DNA of 64,000 nt from Sclerodactyla briareus (Eukaryota; Echinodermata; Holothuroidea; Dendrochirotida; Sclerodactylidae). The first letter of the stretch is position 1. Every line of letters begins with the position of its first letter. Under the pieces are notes generated by a model. It ran no database searches. It was given only the letters and a program-made list of their open reading frames with translations, and had not been told where the DNA came from. Location: contig JAODTK010005660.1 of the NCBI GenBank assembly GCA_026419785.1, forward strand, positions 186,001 through 250,000, written 5' to 3'. The translations under genes were made by a program, and so were the position numbers. Below, piece after piece: positions 4,775-49,162 of this stretch.

Positions 4775-5075
4775 TTGCTACAAGAGATCTCTTGGATCTC
4801 TATCTGATCTCTATTCTGATTTGCATAATTTCTGCGATATTTTTGAAGTTCGTTGGATTTGACGAAACTCGGTGGAGAAGATCGGTTTAACTATAGTCCC
4901 AATAAATTTTACAGTAGGGACGAGTCCCCCCGAAGGTCATTTATGTTAATAAGTCGCCATTTCCTCTGTCTAATTTGCATAAGTATTAAGAGGTTTGAAG
5001 TAGTTGGTTGAATCCTCATGAAACCTTGGTGGGTATGGTACATTTTGACCTGATAAATTTAACAACAGTGTCGGT
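4775..5075. repeat. Two TTTGCATAATT...AAACTTGGTG monomers (Helitron-interior-like repeat)
   Basis: The word series TTTGCATAAT, then GAAGTTCGTTGGATTTGACGAAACTCGGTGG at about 4820-4875, recurs as TTTGCATAAG ... GAAGTAGTTGG...GAAACCTTGGTGG at about 4975-5035. A GAAGGTCATTTATG segment lies between them. The same monomer fills the interior of the Helitron-like copies at 46.9-47.5 kb and 16.9-17.5 kb. Boundaries are vague and no terminal structure is visible here, so this may be a fragment of a longer decayed element. Confidence 0.55.
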
Positions 5076-11879: not shown

Positions 11880-12002
11880 TCGAGGGGCGCGCTGGCGCAA
11901 CCCTCATAGAGATGAGTCCTTCGAGGGGCGCGCTGGCGCAACCCTCATAGAGATGAGTCCTTCGAGGGGCGCGCTGGCGCAACTCTCATAGGGATGAGTC
12001 TT
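11880..12002. repeat. 41-bp tandem repeat, three copies
   Basis: Units start at 11880, 11921 and 11962. The first two are identical over the repeat and the third has two substitutions (CTCTCATAGG for CCCTCATAGA). Each unit contains GGGGCGCGCTGGCGCAA and a small inverted repeat CTCAT-AGAG-ATGAG. The near identity suggests a recent expansion. The GC-rich unit contrasts with the AT-rich flanks. Confidence 0.95.
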
Positions 12003-15000: not shown

Positions 15001-15375
15001 TCTCACGGGTAACGAATACCTATGAATTTATCCAGTTTCAGGAGTTAGCGTATCTTCAGAATTGTTGTCTTTACAGCTCCTCTGTAGTCAACTAGGCCCT
15101 GAACCCTCACAAACCTTCCCTGCGGACTGGCGTATATTCCCCCCCCCCCCCCAATGAACTCAGTGTGTGGTCCTGTTCGCAGCTTATAAAGTCAGTCTTC
15201 TGTTAACGTGCAGTCAATATACGAACGATAAGTTAGTCGTAACGCTTTTTTATTAGACTATTTATGAAGTGTCATATTCAGTGTGGCTTTATAGCTCTGA
15301 GGGGACTACAACTACGTCACTGTACTAAAAGAGCAGTGAGAAGGTATTCTCGTCTGGCTTCCTCTGCTTGTAGGC
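12003..15375. other. No supported gene; a few dispersed repeat words
   Basis: CCCTCCATGATGTACA at about 12715 repeats that at 11828, followed in both by loosely similar text, so a low-copy dispersed repeat spans roughly 11760-11880 and 12660-12790. CACGCCAGGAACTGTTAC at about 12585 resembles CACGGCAGGAACTAACAC at 11862. C homopolymers occur at 12991 and 15141. Short frames such as 13443-13673 and 14187-14405 are unrecognised. Confidence 0.45.
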
Positions 15376-15461
15376 TAGGCAATTCCGTATTTCAGTGTTA
15401 AAAGCAGAACCACGTCACGACATATGGAAATAATAATATTATTGAATTGAAATATTCGTTC
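15376..15461. repeat. Left member of a direct repeat flanking the Helitron-like element H1
   Basis: GGCAATTCCGTATTTCAG...GCAGAACCACGTCACGACATATGGAAATAATAAT...TGAATTGA...TATTCGT is repeated in the same orientation at 16417-16499. Identity is about 80-85% by eye, with small gaps. The two copies are 1041 bases apart and bracket the H1 element. Confidence 0.8.
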
Positions 15462-15509: not shown

Positions 15510-16365
15510 GTAATGATATCCCCACATGGGGATATTATTGTTTTTTTCTTCGCCAGCGCCGCCGCCGCCGCCGGAAATTTTCGTGTTAGCGCGATAACTC
15601 TCCAACCCATCATCGGATCGACTTGAAACTTTGCACACATGTTGTCGACCTCACACCAGCTCGGATGAGTTCGAAAGTAGGCGTCGCCGCACACCCACCA
15701 TGAGGGTGGCCATCTTGGACTTTTTACGGTACTTTTTTATCGCTGATTCACGCGTTTCGGAACATGGCGATCGTTTTGAGACCAACTTTCGTTTTCGCCC
15801 CATGGACCCCACCTGGCGGCCATTTTGGATTTTTTGCGAAACTTTTCTATCGCTGATTCGCGCTTTTCGGAACATGGCGATCGTTTTGAGACCAACTTTC
15901 GTTTTCGCCCCATGGACCCCACCTGGCGGCCCCGTTTTGGATTTTTTCGCGAAACTTTTCTATCGCCGATTGCGCGTTTCGGAACATGGCGATCGTTTTG
16001 GGATCAACTTTCGTTTTGGCCCCAATGGGACCCCACTAGGCGGCCATTTTGATTTTTTACGAAACCTTTTCATCGCAGTTTTGCACATTTTGGAACATCG
16101 CGATCGTTCTGAGACCAACTTTCGTTTTCGCCCCATGGACCCCACCTGGCGGCCGTTTGGATTTTTTCGCGAAACTTTTCTATCGCCGATTGCGCGTTTC
16201 GGAACATGGCGATCGTTTTGAGACCAACTTTCGTTTTAAAACCCTCATCGGACCCCACCCCTCATGATCTCAGGCATATCGAATGAGGTTGACATTGTCT
16301 CTCCCCCTGATTGCTCAAATGTGGGTATATACACGTTGGCGATTTACCCGCCAGGCGATGTCTAG
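15510..16365 (+). mobile_element. Helitron-like non-autonomous element H1
   Basis: The 5' part has a 20-bp palindrome (ATATCCCC-ACAT-GGGGATAT, 15516-15535), then GCCGCCGCCGG...TGTTAGCGCGATAACTC...CATCGGATCGACTTGAAACTTTGCACACATGT. This block is shared with H2 (46.9 kb) and H3 (17.4 kb). The 3' part has ATTGCTCAAATGTGGGTATATACACG, a TGGCG/CGCCA stem at 16337-16353 with a 7-nt loop, then 8 nt and CTAG at 16362-16365, followed by T. A hairpin just upstream of a terminal CTRR and insertion next to T are established features of Helitrons. No Rep/helicase frame exists, so it would be non-autonomous. The class assignment is inferred from termini only; the exact 5' end is uncertain. Confidence 0.55.
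15705..16240. repeat. 110-bp tandem array, about five units, inside H1
   Basis: The word GGCGGCC(ATTTTGG) and its variants occur at about 15705, 15815, 15925, 16039 and 16148, spacing 110, 110, 114 and 109. Every unit contains GGAACATGGCGATCG, TTTTGAGACCAACTTTCG and CCCATGGACCCCACC. The 196-codon frame at 15631-16221 and opposite-strand frames are by-products of the repeat, because different units are read in different frames. Neither H2 nor H3 has this array; their interiors use another monomer. Confidence 0.92.
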
Positions 16366-16416
16366 TTTCGTCAAGTAGTTGCAAGCTTTCTCGATGCAGG
16401 GATTAACGTGGTATGG

Positions 16417-16499
16417 GCAATGCAATTCCGCAATTCAGCGCCATGCAGAACCGCGTCACGACATATGGAAATAATAATAATAGTGAATTGACTATTCGT
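16417..16499. repeat. Right member of the direct repeat flanking H1
   Basis: Same orientation as 15376-15461, with shared GCAATTCCG, GCAGAACCGCGTCACGACAT and ATGGAAATAATAAT words. A poly(A) run of more than 20 A lies shortly downstream at 16568-16591. Confidence 0.8.
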
Positions 16500-16908
16500 C
16501 CAAGCGTTTCGGCGCAGCGTCTATACTGGTATAGGCGTTTTCGAAATTAGATTAAATAGGGTCCCCCCAAAAAAAAAAAAAAAAAAAAAAAATTTGTCCA
16601 ATCTATCGCGGTCAAATTTATCTCACCTGTCCAATAATCATCTGACCATAGTATTCATTTTCCCGGGAGAATTCCTTTCATTTGGCTGACCAGGGTTTGA
16701 AATCACAGACAGGGATTATGCCTATCTAGGACCACCACTGATAGGTAATAACCGATGACAGCCACCACCATTATGTAAGTATATGACCAAAAGCTTATAG
16801 CCTACACTACATCAAGAGGCCGGGTATATATAGAGGGTAACCCCCGGGTACGAGATCCTATTAAACTAATCCTATGGAATTTGACAACTGTCCACCCACT
16901 TCACTAAA

Positions 16909-17545
16909 CTAGAATGTGCAGGTGGGTACATCCCCGCAGAAACAGCCTCTGTGGACCTCATTTAGAGGAAGCACATTCAAATATGTCCATTGCCCTCGCG
17001 TTGTTCAGGTCCAACTGTAGTCCACATTCCCCAAGTTTTGGTTAAGTTGGGAGAATTGCATGATTTAGGCAAATTTGACCTCCTGTGACCTTGAAATGAC
17101 CTTCATATTGTATAGGACTAACAACGGGCCCACATCCACGGAGTTTTGTTCAAGCCGACGAAGTTAGAGAAATTGCGGAAAAAACACAAATTTGACCCTC
17201 TGGGTGGACCTTGAAATCAACATGTTATTCCGGACCAACTTTTGTCCCCACCAACTGAGTTACGTGTGAATGGGACTAACTTTATATTTTCGCTGAAAAC
17301 ATAAGTTTTCGAGTAAAGCCTGCAATGAGGGCAGCCAGACATGCGGTAATAATGCCCAATTTCGAACGCATCGAGAGGTCACTGGGGCGGACATGTGCAC
17401 CAAGTTTCAGATCAATCGGATAAGCGTTAAAGAGTTATTGCGCTAACGCCTGAAGTTTTCGGCGGCGGCGGAGCCTGGGACGGCGCCGGCTACACACTCA
17501 AAAACACAGTATCCCCGGACACTACTCGTGTCGCGGTAATAATAT
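16909..17545 (-). mobile_element. Helitron-like non-autonomous element H3
   Basis: On the minus strand it starts near 17545 with a GACAC-GAGTA-GTGTC hairpin (17518-17532). It then has GTGTGTAGCCGGCGCCGTCC, GCGTTAGCGCAATAACTC, CCGATTGATCTGAAACTTGG and TGCACATGT, closely matching the H2 5' block. The interior has two or three monomers with AATTTG...ATGCAATT...AAAACTTGGGG and AAGGTCATTTCAAGGTCA. The 3' end is a bulged GC-rich stem at 16918-16937, then a few bases and CTAG at 16909-16912, followed by TTT outside. It has no protein-coding capacity. Confidence 0.55.
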
Positions 17546-21419: not shown

Positions 21420-22650
21420 ATGGTGGTGAAGAGTATCGAGGGGATGAGAGATCGAGTGATGTAAGCGAGGATTACTGAAGTGAGGAGGCAATGAGAGGGA
21501 ACAATGGTCGGAATAGATGATGAGTGAGGGAGTGAGGGTTTGAGTGAGGAGGGTGATGGGAGTGAGGGTGGACGGGAATGAGGTGATGGGAGTGAGGGTT
21601 GACGGGAGGATGAGGGCTGATGGGGACGTGAGTGTTGAGGGGGGAGGGTTTGACGGGAATGAACGGTTGATGGGAGCCGAGGGTGATGGGAGGGAGGAGT
21701 TGATGGGAGTGAGGGCTGATGCGGAGTGAGTGCATGTTGATGGAAAGAGGGTGACGGGAATGAAGGTTCGAGGGAGCGAGGGTTGATGGGAGCGAGAGTG
21801 ACTGGGAAGAGTGGGATGATGGGAGTGAGTGTGGATGGAGGTGAGGTGACGGGAAGAAGGTGATGGGAGCGAGGGTTGATGGGAGGGAGGTTGATGGGAT
21901 TGATAGGTTGATGGGAGCGAGGAGTTGACGGAATGAAAGTTGATGGGAGCGAGGGATGATGGGAGGGAGGTTGTGATGGGAGTGAGGGTTGATGAGAGCG
22001 AGGGTTGATAGGAGGGAGGTTGAGGGGGTGAGGGTTGATGGGAAAGCGAGGGTTGATGGGGAGTGCGTTGATGGGCGTAGGGTTGACGGGAATGAGGTTG
22101 ATGGGAGCGAGGGTTGATGGGAGAGAGAGTTGAGGAGTGGAGGGGGATGGGAGTGAGTGTTGATGGGGAGTGATGGTTGATGGGGAGTGATGGTTGATGG
22201 GGAGTGATGGTTGATGAGGAGGGAGGGTGACGGGCGTGAGGTTGATGGGATCGGGGTGTGGGAGTGGAGGGGTTGATTGGAAGTGAGGGTTGAAGGGAGA
22301 GTGAGGGTGATGGGGAGCGCGGGTTGATGGGAGTGGTGTGTTGATGGGAGTGAGGGTTGTGGGAGTGAGGGTTGATGGGAGAGAGGTTTTGATGGGTGTG
22401 AGGGTGGATGGGACGAGGGTGATGGGAGGGAGGGTGATGGGAAGTGAAGGTGATGGGAGCGGAGGGTTGACGGGAATGAAGGGTGATGGGAGCGAGGGTT
22501 GAGGGAGCGAGGGTGATGGGAGTGACGGTTGATGAGAGAAGAGGGTGATAGGAGGGAGGGTTGATGGGAGTGAGGGTTGATGGGAAGGAGCGAGGGTTGA
22601 GGGAGCGAGGGTTGATGACGTGAGGGTTGATGTGTGGATGTGAGAGGTGA
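21420..22650. repeat. 1.2-kb degenerate G-rich minisatellite, unit about 16 bp
   Basis: The + strand is built of imperfect copies of TTGATGGGAGYGAGGG, with ACGGGAATGA and ATGGGGAGTGA variants, for at least 70 units. Base composition is extremely strand-biased: G-rich on +, with almost no C. On the minus strand this leaves a 427-codon frame (22755-21472) consisting of His, Pro, Ser, Leu, Thr and Asn, of the form HQPSLPST. Because 16 is not a multiple of 3, successive units are read in all three frames, so the frame is open simply because the unit lacks stops in any frame. I do not call it a gene. Confidence 0.95.
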
Positions 22651-44095: not shown

Positions 44096-44850
44096 CAGCC
44101 TGCCCAATCAAACGTGTCTACACGCCCACGTGTCGACAGACTGACTGATAACCGTCCTACATGGCGTATAATGAGGAATTCATTCGGGCATCTGTGAATA
44201 TGAATGTTTTGAGCTCCACACTCTGAAAAAACATCTGTGTCGAATGGATTAGATTGGATCGTTTGGGGACCGAACGATTTTTTTGTCAAAATATGACGGT
44301 CATTAAATGTTGTACTGACCCGATTGTGGGTCATTTGATCCAATGTATTCAGAGTGATAATTAGCCACAACAGTTAACACAAAACTAGGGGAATGCTCGG
44401 AGTAACAAAACAAAAGTCCATCATTAATAGGGAAAGACAAGGAAAACCAAGAATATATATTCTGTCCTGTTAATCCCATATTATAGCGACATTGTTACAG
44501 TTACAGTAAACCTTCGATATTATAGCGATGTTGTTGCAGAATTTATTGAAACTTCTGAATCAACTCTCGACACCAATTGTATGAGGCCAATCAACCCAAT
44601 GTCCAATCGAATTTGTTTCTGCTCAGCGTATATGGGCAATCCTTCTGATGCTAGCAAGTATATTGCATGTACATCTTTCATTATTCATGAAGATATTCTA
44701 TATACCAACTATAGACATCGTCAGGCGGGTAAAAGCGCTGACATGTATATACCTACTGAAAATTTCTAGAAATTTCCCAAAGGCATGGGTGTTTGGAATG
44801 CATGCCGCTGACTCAACACCCACCCCACCCCCTCCCACACACACATCTGG
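44096..44850. other. No supported gene
   Basis: Short frames only. TATTATAGCGA is repeated at 44479 and 44517 within two diverged copies of about 38 bp. Confidence 0.45.
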
Positions 44851-45234: not shown

Positions 45235-45875
45235 TTTGCAACCTACGTGTATGCTTTGAAGTCCATAGATGTTTATAATCTCCTGATATCCTGCTTACAA
45301 GTTTTTCCGGTGTTAACCCCTCCTAACTGCACTGATCATCTTGAACTAGTACGTAGAACATTAAAAACAAACAAAAACAACAGGGTCCTCCCCCTTTATA
45401 TCTGCAACCTACATACTACTTCGGAAGTTCTTGGTCTTGGCAATTCCTTGATATCGTGCATGCTCATAAGCTGCTTAGCCTTTGACCTCCCCTGACTTTG
45501 ATCACTTCTATGAAAACAACGTTCTTCCTCATTATATTAGCCAGCTACATATCTACTGTATTAATGCTTGGATTCCTTGATGTCGTGCTAACAAGCTCTT
45601 TCGGTTTTTTTTTTACATCTCTTGACCTCTCCATGACCTTGAGCTAATACCAAAAAACAATAAAGTTTTCTCCCTTCACAACTATTTTGAAGTTATTTAA
45701 TGTTTGTAATCTCCTGATATCGTGCTCACGGTTTTACCTCTCCTGACCCTGAATAACCTTGAACTGGTAAGGAAAACAATGAGTACTTTCTTTCCATGTA
45801 AGCAAACCCTATTGCCTAATTAATTTTGAACTCTATAAAGTTTTGCGCTGTGGAGATATCCTGCACACACACATA
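45235..45875. repeat. Diverged tandem array, about 130-163 bp monomer, four to five copies
   Basis: The word (C/T)TCCT(T)GAT(A/G)TC(G/C)TGC recurs at about 45280, 45443, 45573 and 45709, with a weaker GAGATATCCTGC at 45850. Between the anchors each copy has a CTTTTTCGGTTTTACCTCTCCTGACC-like segment, a TGAACTAGTA.GAAAACAA segment and AGTTCTCCCTTT. A 87-codon frame (45232-45495) is a by-product. It ends 25 bases before the MITE at 45900. Confidence 0.75.
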
Positions 45876-45899: not shown

Positions 45900-46102
45900 T
45901 ACACTCTTAAAAATGTTGTGTAACTAGCTCACCTATCCCGGTGTTGGGTAAGAAATTAAACAATTATTGTGTATAGTCCGCCCGATTTGTGTAATTTTTA
46001 CACAACCTTTACATAGTGTTGTGTAATTTCTTACACAACACCGCGATGGGTATGCTAGTTACACAGTGTTATGTAATTATACACAACATTTTTTAGAGTG
46101 TA
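45900..46102. mobile_element. Complete 203-bp Tc1/mariner-type palindromic MITE
   Basis: The left end TACACTCTTAAAAATG.TTGTGTA (45900-45922) is the inverted complement of the right end ending TTTAGAGTGTA (46080-46102), with one mismatch over 23 bases. The outermost TA on each side can be the TA target duplication of Tc1/mariner-type insertion. Inside, a second palindrome pairs CGGTGTTGGGTAAGAAATTAAACA with TGTGTAATTTCTTACACAACACCG, so nearly the whole element folds on itself. There is no coding capacity. Decayed or related copies lie at 3.25 and 43.55 kb. Confidence 0.88.
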
Positions 46103-46571: not shown

Positions 46572-46870
46572 TGCATGGGTCTTGATAACATTGATTTCCC
46601 ATCAGGGTGGTTCAGTACTCAACTCGACATTTATCTGACAGAGTCAATGTAACACAATCTGCTATTTTTACACACATCAGCCATGACACCTTCATATCTT
46701 GTTCTAAAAACGTCAAAACATATTTCAGCGAATGCAACCACATATGAAACACCTCCTACTAGAAAAACTAGGTACGAGGTGTCCGATGAGCTACTGAATA
46801 TCACAGGTTAGGCTAAAACGAAGTCCAAAGCTTCTGGGAAGACAGAGTGGCTTCTCAGCGTAATTAAATT
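46572..46870 (+). repeat. Local duplication, copy 2 (empty), related to 43280-44095
   Basis: It matches copy 1 in order but reads straight through CCGATGAGCTACTGAATATCACAGG (46783-46807), where copy 1 has the 495-base insertion. Its right end meets the Helitron-like element H2. Confidence 0.75.
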
Positions 46871-46879
46871 TCCGCGACC

Positions 46880-47474
46880 CTGGAATTGTTCGGGATATTA
46901 TGGTTTTGGGTGTGTAGCCTCCGCCGTCCCAGGCTCCGCCGCCGGAAACTTTAGGCGTTAGCGCAATAACTCCTGAACGCTTTATCCGATTGATCTGAAC
47001 TTGGTAAACATGTGCGCTCTAGTGAATTCTCGAACGAATTCGAAAGTGGGCATCACTGCAATGCTGGGGGACGCTAATTAAAAAGTTAGTCAGATTTGAG
47101 CGCAACTTGGTGTTTGGCTACAATTGATCCGAAAAATTGGAGGTCATTCCAAGGCGAAAAAAAAAAAAAAAAACATCAGAGGTCCAATTTGCATAATTTA
47201 TGCGATTTTCCGAACTTTGTCAGATTTGAACGAAACTTGGTGCATGGGGGAAATATTTGTTCCTGACAAAGTTTAATGTCATTTCACAAGGTCACATGTC
47301 AAATTTGCATAATCCATGTAACTTCCATGGATTACAACAAAACTTGGTGGATAAAGGCTATCTTGGTTTCTGACCAAAATGGAGGTCTTTGTGAGTGGTA
47401 CATATCTACTTCTTCCCAATGATTGCTCAAAAGCGGGATATATACGTGGGCGGTTACCGCCTACACATGTCTAG
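46880..47474 (+). mobile_element. Helitron-like non-autonomous element H2
   Basis: The 5' block GGGATATTATGG...GTGTGTAGCC.CCGCCGTCCCAGGCTCCGCCGCCGG, GGCGTTAGCGCAATAACTCC and CCGATTGATCTGAAC matches H1 and H3. The interior has two to three monomers of AATTTGCATAAT...GAACTTTGTCAGATTTGAACGAAACTTGGTG. The 3' end has GATTGCTCAAAAGCGGGATATATAC, an 8-bp stem with a 3-nt loop (GTGGGCGG-TTA-CCGCCTAC, 47446-47464), 6 nt, and CTAG at 47471-47474, then TT. A short hairpin followed by CTAG and a T flank fits the Helitron 3' signature. The 5' boundary is uncertain by about 20 bases. Confidence 0.58.
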
Positions 47475-49162
47475 TTATTTCAGTTATCCGACTTGCTTGA
47501 GTCAGGGATATAGCCATAATCTCATCGACGAAGTAGGGCTGGTGGGTGAGGGTGGTTAAACACTGCCTTTAAGCCTACTAATAATCGTTCTAGTTCTCGT
47601 ATGAGGCAGCGTTCTAGTTATCGTATGAGGCACTTCCAATCTGGGTAGGGTAGGGCATTTTTAAGGATAATCTCAAAATGAATCTCACCCTCGAAACGTT
47701 GACCAATTTGACTGCAATCGAATTAACCTATACTTCTGAGATAATGGATTTACCCTCATTCGTGTAATCGAGATATTTCAATATGGATTTCCGATAACTT
47801 CAAGGAAAATAGAGATGAAGTAGAAGGAGAAGGAAAATACACCCTATAAGTTTACATTTCCAACTTATTACTCCCCAAATCAAATTTCAAATTTTATTTC
47901 AATTTATTGTTAATTGGTGAGTGTATCTTTGAGTATACCTCTGATGTTAGCAAGATGAGTATATCCATTGTTCCACTGGGTGAGTTTACAAGGAAAATTC
48001 TGTGAATCTCGTGTATCCTTTGATATAGCATTACCACATGAGAATAGCATTACTGTATTAACTGTGTAGGCCCGAATCCATGTGTAGACGCAGTGGTGCA
48101 TTGTTTCAACAGATACACCAAGATATTTAGTGCTTCAATGTCATATGTGTATAATATCAAACTCCTTAGTACTTGTCCTTGAACTGCCTTGAAGAAAATC
48201 AGCCCATAATTAGTGTTTTGAATTATTTTGCTGACATCACTGCTTGAAAAATGTTCCCTTCCAGGATGTACACACGTTCCCTTCCAGGGAGTAAATCTAC
48301 CGTGAATTTCAACAATGCCAAACACTGGACGTGGTTATAAAACATTACCAACGCACAGGGTAATTATTGTCCCCAATATAAAGGAGCTAAGATACAGGGA
48401 CTGCTTGCCAAAATATATATATTTGTCGGATTTTGTCATAGTGCAGTAGGGGTCACCCCGCGGCTGGAGGGATAGTGGGCAACATGGCTATGACAATATG
48501 GTTTGATGGCAGATGTTCAGTTAACAATATTCATTACTATATTACTTCGTGAATTTTGAGACTCGTGAAATCCGGGGGGTAAGGTCGTGAGGGCGGTAAA
48601 TGATATCACTGTCGGAGGCACTATGATCCTGTGTCTTGTAAGCATGTAGGGCCAATTGCCCTGGCACATGATTTTAGCCAAGACGCGTATCACGGAACTT
48701 TGAGCCGTTTAGTAGCCCTTTCTTATTCGTTTGATTCAGTCGGGGATCTATGTGTAATGTGTGTGAGAGTGGGTGTGTGCGTGCGTGTGTATGTATGTAT
48801 ATATGTATGTACGTATTCCTGTAAAACATTGTATATATATGGTAGTCTGGAGTAGCATGATCGGGTTGTCCCAGGACTGAAAAAATGGGCCCGGTAATAA
48901 GAGAAGTAAGGGTTTGGCTAATACCTCAGTATCATGCCGCTCGTGGCTCCCACATCGGTGACGAAACGTGCCCGGATTTATGGCAATGATCACTGACCGA
49001 TTGAGGTCTCCCTATTTCAAGGAGGTCTGTCAAGTGCTTTTATGGTAATATCTACCGTAATCTATAAGTCTTCATTTAAATATATTTATTGCATTCCATT
49101 ATGTATCGCTTGTAATTATGGGATTCATTGTTACTGTGTCGAAATATGCAATAAACAGTCCA
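47475..49162. other. No supported gene; overlapping unrecognised minus frames at 47910-48325
   Basis: The minus-strand frames 48325-48050 (91 codons) and 48101-47910 (63 codons) overlap. The second ends in TAA shortly before AATAAA-type words (about 47895-47910 on the minus strand), which is reminiscent of a 3' gene end. I recognise no family in either and see no splice evidence. CGTATGAGGCA with GTTCTAGTT is repeated at 47588 and 47611. A GT/TATG-rich stretch lies at 48757-48811. Confidence 0.35.

Follow-up and report, generated by a model that had tools for sequence, protein, structure and literature searches.

Repeat Elements of the Window

The window, that is, the whole stretch of DNA that was analyzed, comprises 64,000 nucleotides of the Sclerodactyla briareus genome (contig JAODTK010005660.1, positions 186,001 to 250,000; G000:C2903:186001-250000 in the searched genome of 319 Mb and 3171 contigs). 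It contains three elements of one repeat family, H1 of lineage A and H2 and H3 of lineage B (Table 1). All three had been recognized in the original prediction and are real, with ends that shift by 2 to 14 bases. As had been proposed, a head is common to them (BLAST within the window; H2–H3, 6e-42; H1–H3, ~1e-13; H1–H2, ~1e-11), and H1 and H3 also have a tail in common (4e-6).

Table 1. Family features in the window, with the basis of each assignment.
Feature	Position	Strand	Basis
H1, lineage A element including terminal TT, 852 bp	15516..16367	+	Ends compared with aligned copies
H1 5′ hairpin, ATATCCCC pairs with GGGGATAT	15516..15535	+	Fold z -2.31, 6/200 shuffles equal
H1 CCG microsatellite	15556..15574	+	Sequence
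H1 head block	15578..15693	+	Profile match, E 7e-27
H1 110-bp array, 4.8 units, five profile matches	15707..16259	+	Repeat listing and profile
H1 tail: inverted subterminal repeat, 3′ hairpin, CTAGTT	16295..16367	+	Profile E 9e-21; fold
H2, lineage B element, subtype C tail; left arm of 3′ hairpin gone, eroded 5′ end	16907..17540	-	5′ limit by eye against relatives
H2 117-bp-type array, three profile matches	16993..17298	-	Best E 8.5e-15
H2 head block	17336..17452	-	Profile match, E 2.6e-26
H3, lineage B element including terminal TT, 611 bp, eroded 5′ hairpin	46866..47476	+	5′ limit by eye against relatives
H3 head block	46950..47074	+	Profile match, E 6.5e-32
H3 117-bp-type array	47080..47394	+	Sequence and profile
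H3 tail: inverted subterminal repeat, 3′ hairpin, CTAGTT	47407..47476	+	Profile E 2e-20; fold z -2.17
Solo tail of family type, no head found adjoining	44712..44756	-	Profile match, E 2.5e-6
Stray 117-bp monomers	4819-4909, 5019-5061	+	Profile search

The family layout consists, from 5′ to 3′, of the ATATCCCC/GGGGATAT hairpin, a CCG microsatellite, the head block, a tandem array, the inverted repeat GGGGATATA, the 3′ hairpin, and CTAGTT. The 18-mer and 16-mer that had been quoted for the shared 5′ block are both exact in H2; H1 differs in both (GTGTTAGCGCGATAACTC and TCGGATCGACTTGAAAC), and H3 has the 18-mer intact and the 16-mer one A short. The predicted interiors are present: the H1 monomer is 110 bp, and the monomers of H2 and H3 are about 117 bp and related to each other.

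Other repeats lie in the window. A direct repeat of 87 bp (83% alike) flanks H1 at 15373-15459 and 16416-16499, about 50 bp beyond its ends, and is not a target duplication. Upstream of the solo tail at 44756-44712 (-), a degenerate repeat with weak self-matches (~45300-45750, minus strand; units ~145 bp by eye) is possibly a third array type, and no head was found for it. An inverted repeat of about 150 bp (69% alike) with ACACTCTAAAAA ends forms a small foldback-like element at ~45900-46065, a 16-bp minisatellite of about 69 copies at 72% occupies 21528-22632 and has long open frames on the minus strand, and a 41-bp unit is repeated three times (97% alike) at 11880-12000. A tRNA scan and an Rfam scan (gathering scores) of the window found nothing.

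Terminal Hairpins and Subterminal Inverted Repeat

The 5′ hairpin is kept in H1 (Table 1) and, in its inner part, in H2 (z -2.63; 5/200 shuffles equal), and is eroded in H3 (z 0.55; 137/200); its partner GGGGATAT is seen in most of the listed heads. ATATCCCC recurs in inverted form as GGGGATATA, usually 36 bp from the 3′ end, so that the inverted repeat is asymmetric. The match extends to 8 or 9 of 9 bases in 17/25 copies and is perfect in 8/25.

Each copy had been predicted to end in a hairpin followed by CTAG and T, and this description fits H1 (z -1.45; 14/200 shuffles equal) and H3 (5/200), in both of which the hairpin is followed by CTAG and TT. It does not fit H2: comparison with the relatives L076 and L077 shows a loss of about 15 bases that include the left arm, and what is left folds like shuffled sequence (z -0.46; 58/200). 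Across 23 tails (21 distinct), 87.5% of the cells of the 3′ hairpin are paired (0/500 shuffles), the covariation score is equaled in 1/500, and one pair is present as GU, UA, AU, and CG. Against this stand the outermost pair, which fails in 9/21 tails, and the number of doubly changed pairs, which is not above that in shuffles (315/500).

Copies, Termini, and Target Site

Searches of the genome listed 1670 candidates with the H1 query, 4083 with the H3 query, and 3192 with the H3 head query, of which 40 per query were scored, so that these totals are listings of candidates rather than copy counts. The 82 loci examined comprise 30 obtained with the H3 query, the 20 best places (49 match rows) obtained with the H1 query, 20 obtained with the H3 head alone, 3 stretches encoding a Rep domain, and 9 plain stretches; some places are present twice in the set, and L001, L031, L063, L066, and L067 were left out of the tree and the profile tests. 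Family pieces occur in 2 of five 10-kb stretches picked by position, two of the five lying beside the window. Consensus lengths are 788 for lineage A (12 copies), 639 for lineage B (15 copies), and 923 for a double-headed subfamily, D (9 copies), with median divergences from consensus of 8.8, 5.6, and 3.2%, respectively.

A common boundary across copies, which had been named as a requirement for the family, is found at both ends, where conservation stops sharply at (T)NATT/ATATCCCC in the heads and at CTAGTT in the tails. Heads were alignable on ATCCC or a near variant in 38/42 cases (three lacked the motif and one was a repeat or too short; 4/38 are plainly mis-anchored), and tails on a CTAG-like motif in 44/55 (nine without the motif and two repeats); the anchor columns of both alignments are high by construction. 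Among the bases preceding the head anchor, T(-7), A(-5), T(-4), T(-3), A(-2), and T(-1) recur in 29-35/38 heads and positions from -8 outward are near background, and in the tails the second T after CTAG is kept in 43/44 and conservation ends there. The 5′ terminus, which remained to be defined in the original prediction, is ATATCCCC behind (T)NATT. Among 25 copies with both ends (29 tried), the bases before the insert are TT in 21, ATT in 20, and TNATT in 18, and background frequencies in the fetched DNA are 2.5% for ATT and 0.7% for TNATT. The base before the insert is T, and the predicted insertion between A and T is not supported.

The joined flanks of the 25 copies were compared with the fetched loci and the window, and two insertion loci have unoccupied counterparts. 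In both, the insert stands behind ATT and a target duplication is absent, as had been anticipated for empty sites. At L047, a lineage-B copy (434-1099) lies inside a lineage-A copy, between array and tail, and when its flanks are joined they align continuously, apart from gaps of a few bases, with all five lineage-A copies tried (L031, which is H1, L033, L036, L038, and L042). L059 contains two unoccupied paralogues of L023, which are 77% and 76% alike and both have ATT before the junction; the second covers just ~10 bases of the left flank, and both are below the 90% threshold given in PMC4067079. A further case, L008, was dropped, its match to L009 being uninformative. The counterparts of L047 and L023 identify the insert as ATATCCCC...CTAGTT, and the cut may equally be written T^T because TT is present in both the target and the element end.

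These termini bear on two other classes of transposon. Canonical Helitrons (Helitron1) have 5′ TC and 3′ CTRR with one 3′ hairpin and insert between A and T. The CTAG end, the hairpin upstream of it, the T that follows, and the lack of target duplication at two loci agree with such an element, but this family begins with ATATCCCC behind T rather than with TC behind A, and its 5′ hairpin and asymmetric inverted repeat are both absent from the canonical type as described in the available text of PMC3627910. Membership in that group was rejected on the 5′ end and the target and is very unlikely. A miniature inverted-repeat (MITE) or foldback element mobilized by a TIR transposase would account for inverted repeats near both ends, yet one repeat is at the 5′ terminus and the other usually 36 bp inside the 3′ end, and the combination of terminal inverted repeats with a target duplication is not found; the unoccupied sites of the two loci led to the rejection of this origin, which is extremely improbable.

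Head Lineages and Their Arrays

In a head tree built by a quick method from 79 head blocks (126 columns; 52/76 inner branches unresolved), the 20 heads of lineage A group in one clade (SH-aLRT 98). A single change of array type is seen over 66 head rows, nine first heads of D and four others having been set aside. The 110-bp monomer was found at 0/30 loci of the H3 search, 20/20 of the H1 search, and 0/20 of the H3-head-only search, and the B monomer at 30/30, 2/20, and 20/20, respectively; the two occurrences in the H1 set come from the nested copy in L047 and from a flank of L033. Each of the two head lineages keeps its own array in the copies examined. Lineage-A copies were gathered with the full-length H1 query and are a biased set, so that mixed elements in this lineage may have been missed.

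The interiors had been taken to be freely interchangeable within a fixed shell, and this is not borne out: array type follows head lineage, with the lineage-A set drawn from a full-length query. Repeated exchange of arrays into one shell might be suspected from the related shells of A and B with their different arrays, from the composite structure of the D elements, and from the solo tail of the window, which adjoins another, degenerate repeat. The single change of array type over 66 heads and the absence of the 110-bp monomer from all 20 H3-head-only loci make such a history quite improbable.

The shells of A and B are 82% alike in the head block and 91% in the tail; crude tail typing of the 12 A copies, which have clipped ends, gave 6 A, 4 B, and 2 ties. 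Kinship of the A and B monomers was not detected by profile comparison (160/1000 shuffles equal). Their arrays could nevertheless be strongly diverged offspring of one monomer, which would need zero replacement: the periods are similar, the A/B alignment continues past the head block in phase, and one of six phase tests and a junction test gave 3/200 and 31/2000. The other five phase tests (17, 25, 44, 125, and 146 of 200), the profile comparison, and the fact that the reverse complement outscores the forward strand argue against common descent of the monomers, which is unlikely. One replacement in lineage A accounts most simply for the 110-bp array.

The B monomer may derive from the element itself. 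The head block scores 22.2 against the B monomer profile (shuffle mean 11.1; 0/1000), with about 34 bases in register, and by simple scores the D head resembles two D monomers (1 and 0/1000) and the B head resembles Bm2 (5/1000), whereas Bm3 (451/1000) and Dm4 (365/1000) are unlike the head. Since the monomer resembles the head block in register, the 117-bp array may be home-grown. A likeness between the A head and the A monomer (6 and 7/1000) was not accepted because the two align out of register and through low-complexity sequence, and because the profile test gave no signal (634/1000).

Composite and Concatemeric Elements

Subfamily D has two heads, a lineage-A-side head standing before a lineage-B head, array, and tail. 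The first heads fall on the A side of the tree (98) and the second heads within B, the tail is 99% identical to that of B, and a short 5′ palindrome is present in 9/9 copies. As D is a composite of both lineages, modules do fuse. The start of a B-type repeat stands behind the D first head, which suggests that B-type repeats were once present on the A side too and were replaced once in lineage A.

L064 (130-1705) consists of three units head to tail with joints CTAATT-ATATCCCC; the two leading units are without the 3′ subterminal repeat and hairpin, and the last unit has both. L064 was rejected as proof of rolling-circle read-through because CTAATT also matches the TNATT target and the hairpin-less units have deletions in common, so that self-insertion with tandem duplication fits too.

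Relation to Known Helitron-Like Elements

H1, H2, and H3 are likely to be copies of one old, abundant, noncoding transposon family of the Helitron2/HINE (Helentron) design, in which the different interiors reflect history rather than frequent swapping and modules have fused in D. The structure agrees with the prediction of a rolling-circle-type family that is non-autonomous, has fixed ends around central repeats, and is related to DINE-1/HINE. The family is a new one of an already known type, and its HINE/Helitron2 membership rests on structure: a 5′-terminal/3′-subterminal inverted repeat, a 5′ hairpin, a 3′ hairpin, and a TT target without duplication.

Among described systems, Helitron2 also has hairpins at both ends, a 5′ T, a 5′ repeat that is terminal and part of the 5′ hairpin, and a 3′ repeat that directly precedes the 3′ hairpin; that 3′ repeat is ~20-30 bp from the end, compared with usually 36 bp here (Bao and Jurka, 2013; PMC3627910). 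DINE-1/HINE elements of mite, mosquito, and flies have subterminal inverted repeats, a 5′ inverted repeat, a 3′ stem-loop, a T-rich target without duplication, and central repeats in some copies (Thomas et al., 2014; PMC4067079). They differ from the present family in the position of the 3′ repeat, which is ~38-60 bp from the end in mite, and in having known autonomous partners (PMC4067079). Helraiser and canonical Helitrons have a 3′ hairpin and a CTAG end in common with this family, and the head-to-tail end joints of Helraiser resemble the unit joints of L064, whereas their 5′ TC and A|T target are absent here and they lack the 5′ hairpin of this family (PMC4778049; PMC5876387).

A closely similar plan is described for Cg_HINE of the Pacific oyster, which has a 5′ subterminal repeat accompanied by an inverted copy of itself, a microsatellite, central tandem repeats, and a 3′ subterminal repeat with a palindrome, and lacks a target duplication (Vojvoda Zeljko et al., 2020; PMC7492417). 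Its monomers are mostly 140-180 bp and its target is TT (PMC7492417), compared with 110 and 117 bp and (T)NATT here, and likeness of monomer and head block in register was found in the present family. Group 2 of Cg_HINE has related flanks and unrelated arrays, each array being tied to its flanks, and fly DINE-1 has related flanks with unrelated arrays between species (PMC7492417). Similar ends with different arrays are thus an arrangement already published for oysters and flies. The occurrence of different arrays in one element, and of one array across elements, is likewise noted in PMC12628747, as are plant arrays in which several 5′ ends go with a single 3′ end (after Xiong et al., 2016).

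Proposed Propagation and Origin of the Central Repeats

The family probably copies itself by a rolling-circle mechanism. A Rep/helicase encoded elsewhere would nick the 5′ end and peel off one strand, this displacement would halt at the 3′ hairpin, and the product would be inserted at a T-rich site. The Rep domain PF14214 occurs in 3 stretches at 2 places in the genome, and the family end pair was not seen in 19 kb around one place and 17 kb around the other; among the Rep places examined, no autonomous partner is linked to the family ends. Near one Rep-domain stretch, L061 carries a 220-codon open frame (2131-2790; G000:C2926:121131-121790, plus strand) with the stretch GESNAGKSW, reminiscent of the helicases of small DNA viruses.

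In Helraiser, the 3′ hairpin acts as a terminator, its loss raises read-through, and exact head-to-tail joints occur in circles (PMC4778049; PMC5876387). By analogy, a missed 3′ hairpin in the present family might plausibly let replication run into a neighboring copy and generate composites like D. Whether HINE-type elements capture their central repeats from satellite DNA or grow them internally is left open in the available text of the oyster papers (PMC7492417; PMC8268682). A tentative proposal, which we regard as possible rather than probable, is that the shell makes its own array: the B monomer would have arisen from the head block (its ~34-base core) and grown when rolling-circle replication missed the 3′ hairpin, D and L064 would be fossils of this process, and the array of lineage A would be a single later replacement.

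This genome allows head block, monomer, composite, and concatemer to be examined side by side, which makes the origin of the central repeats testable; otherwise the family is one further genome for a published pattern. If the proposal is true, a self-made array would favor internal growth over satellite capture as the origin of HINE-type central repeats.
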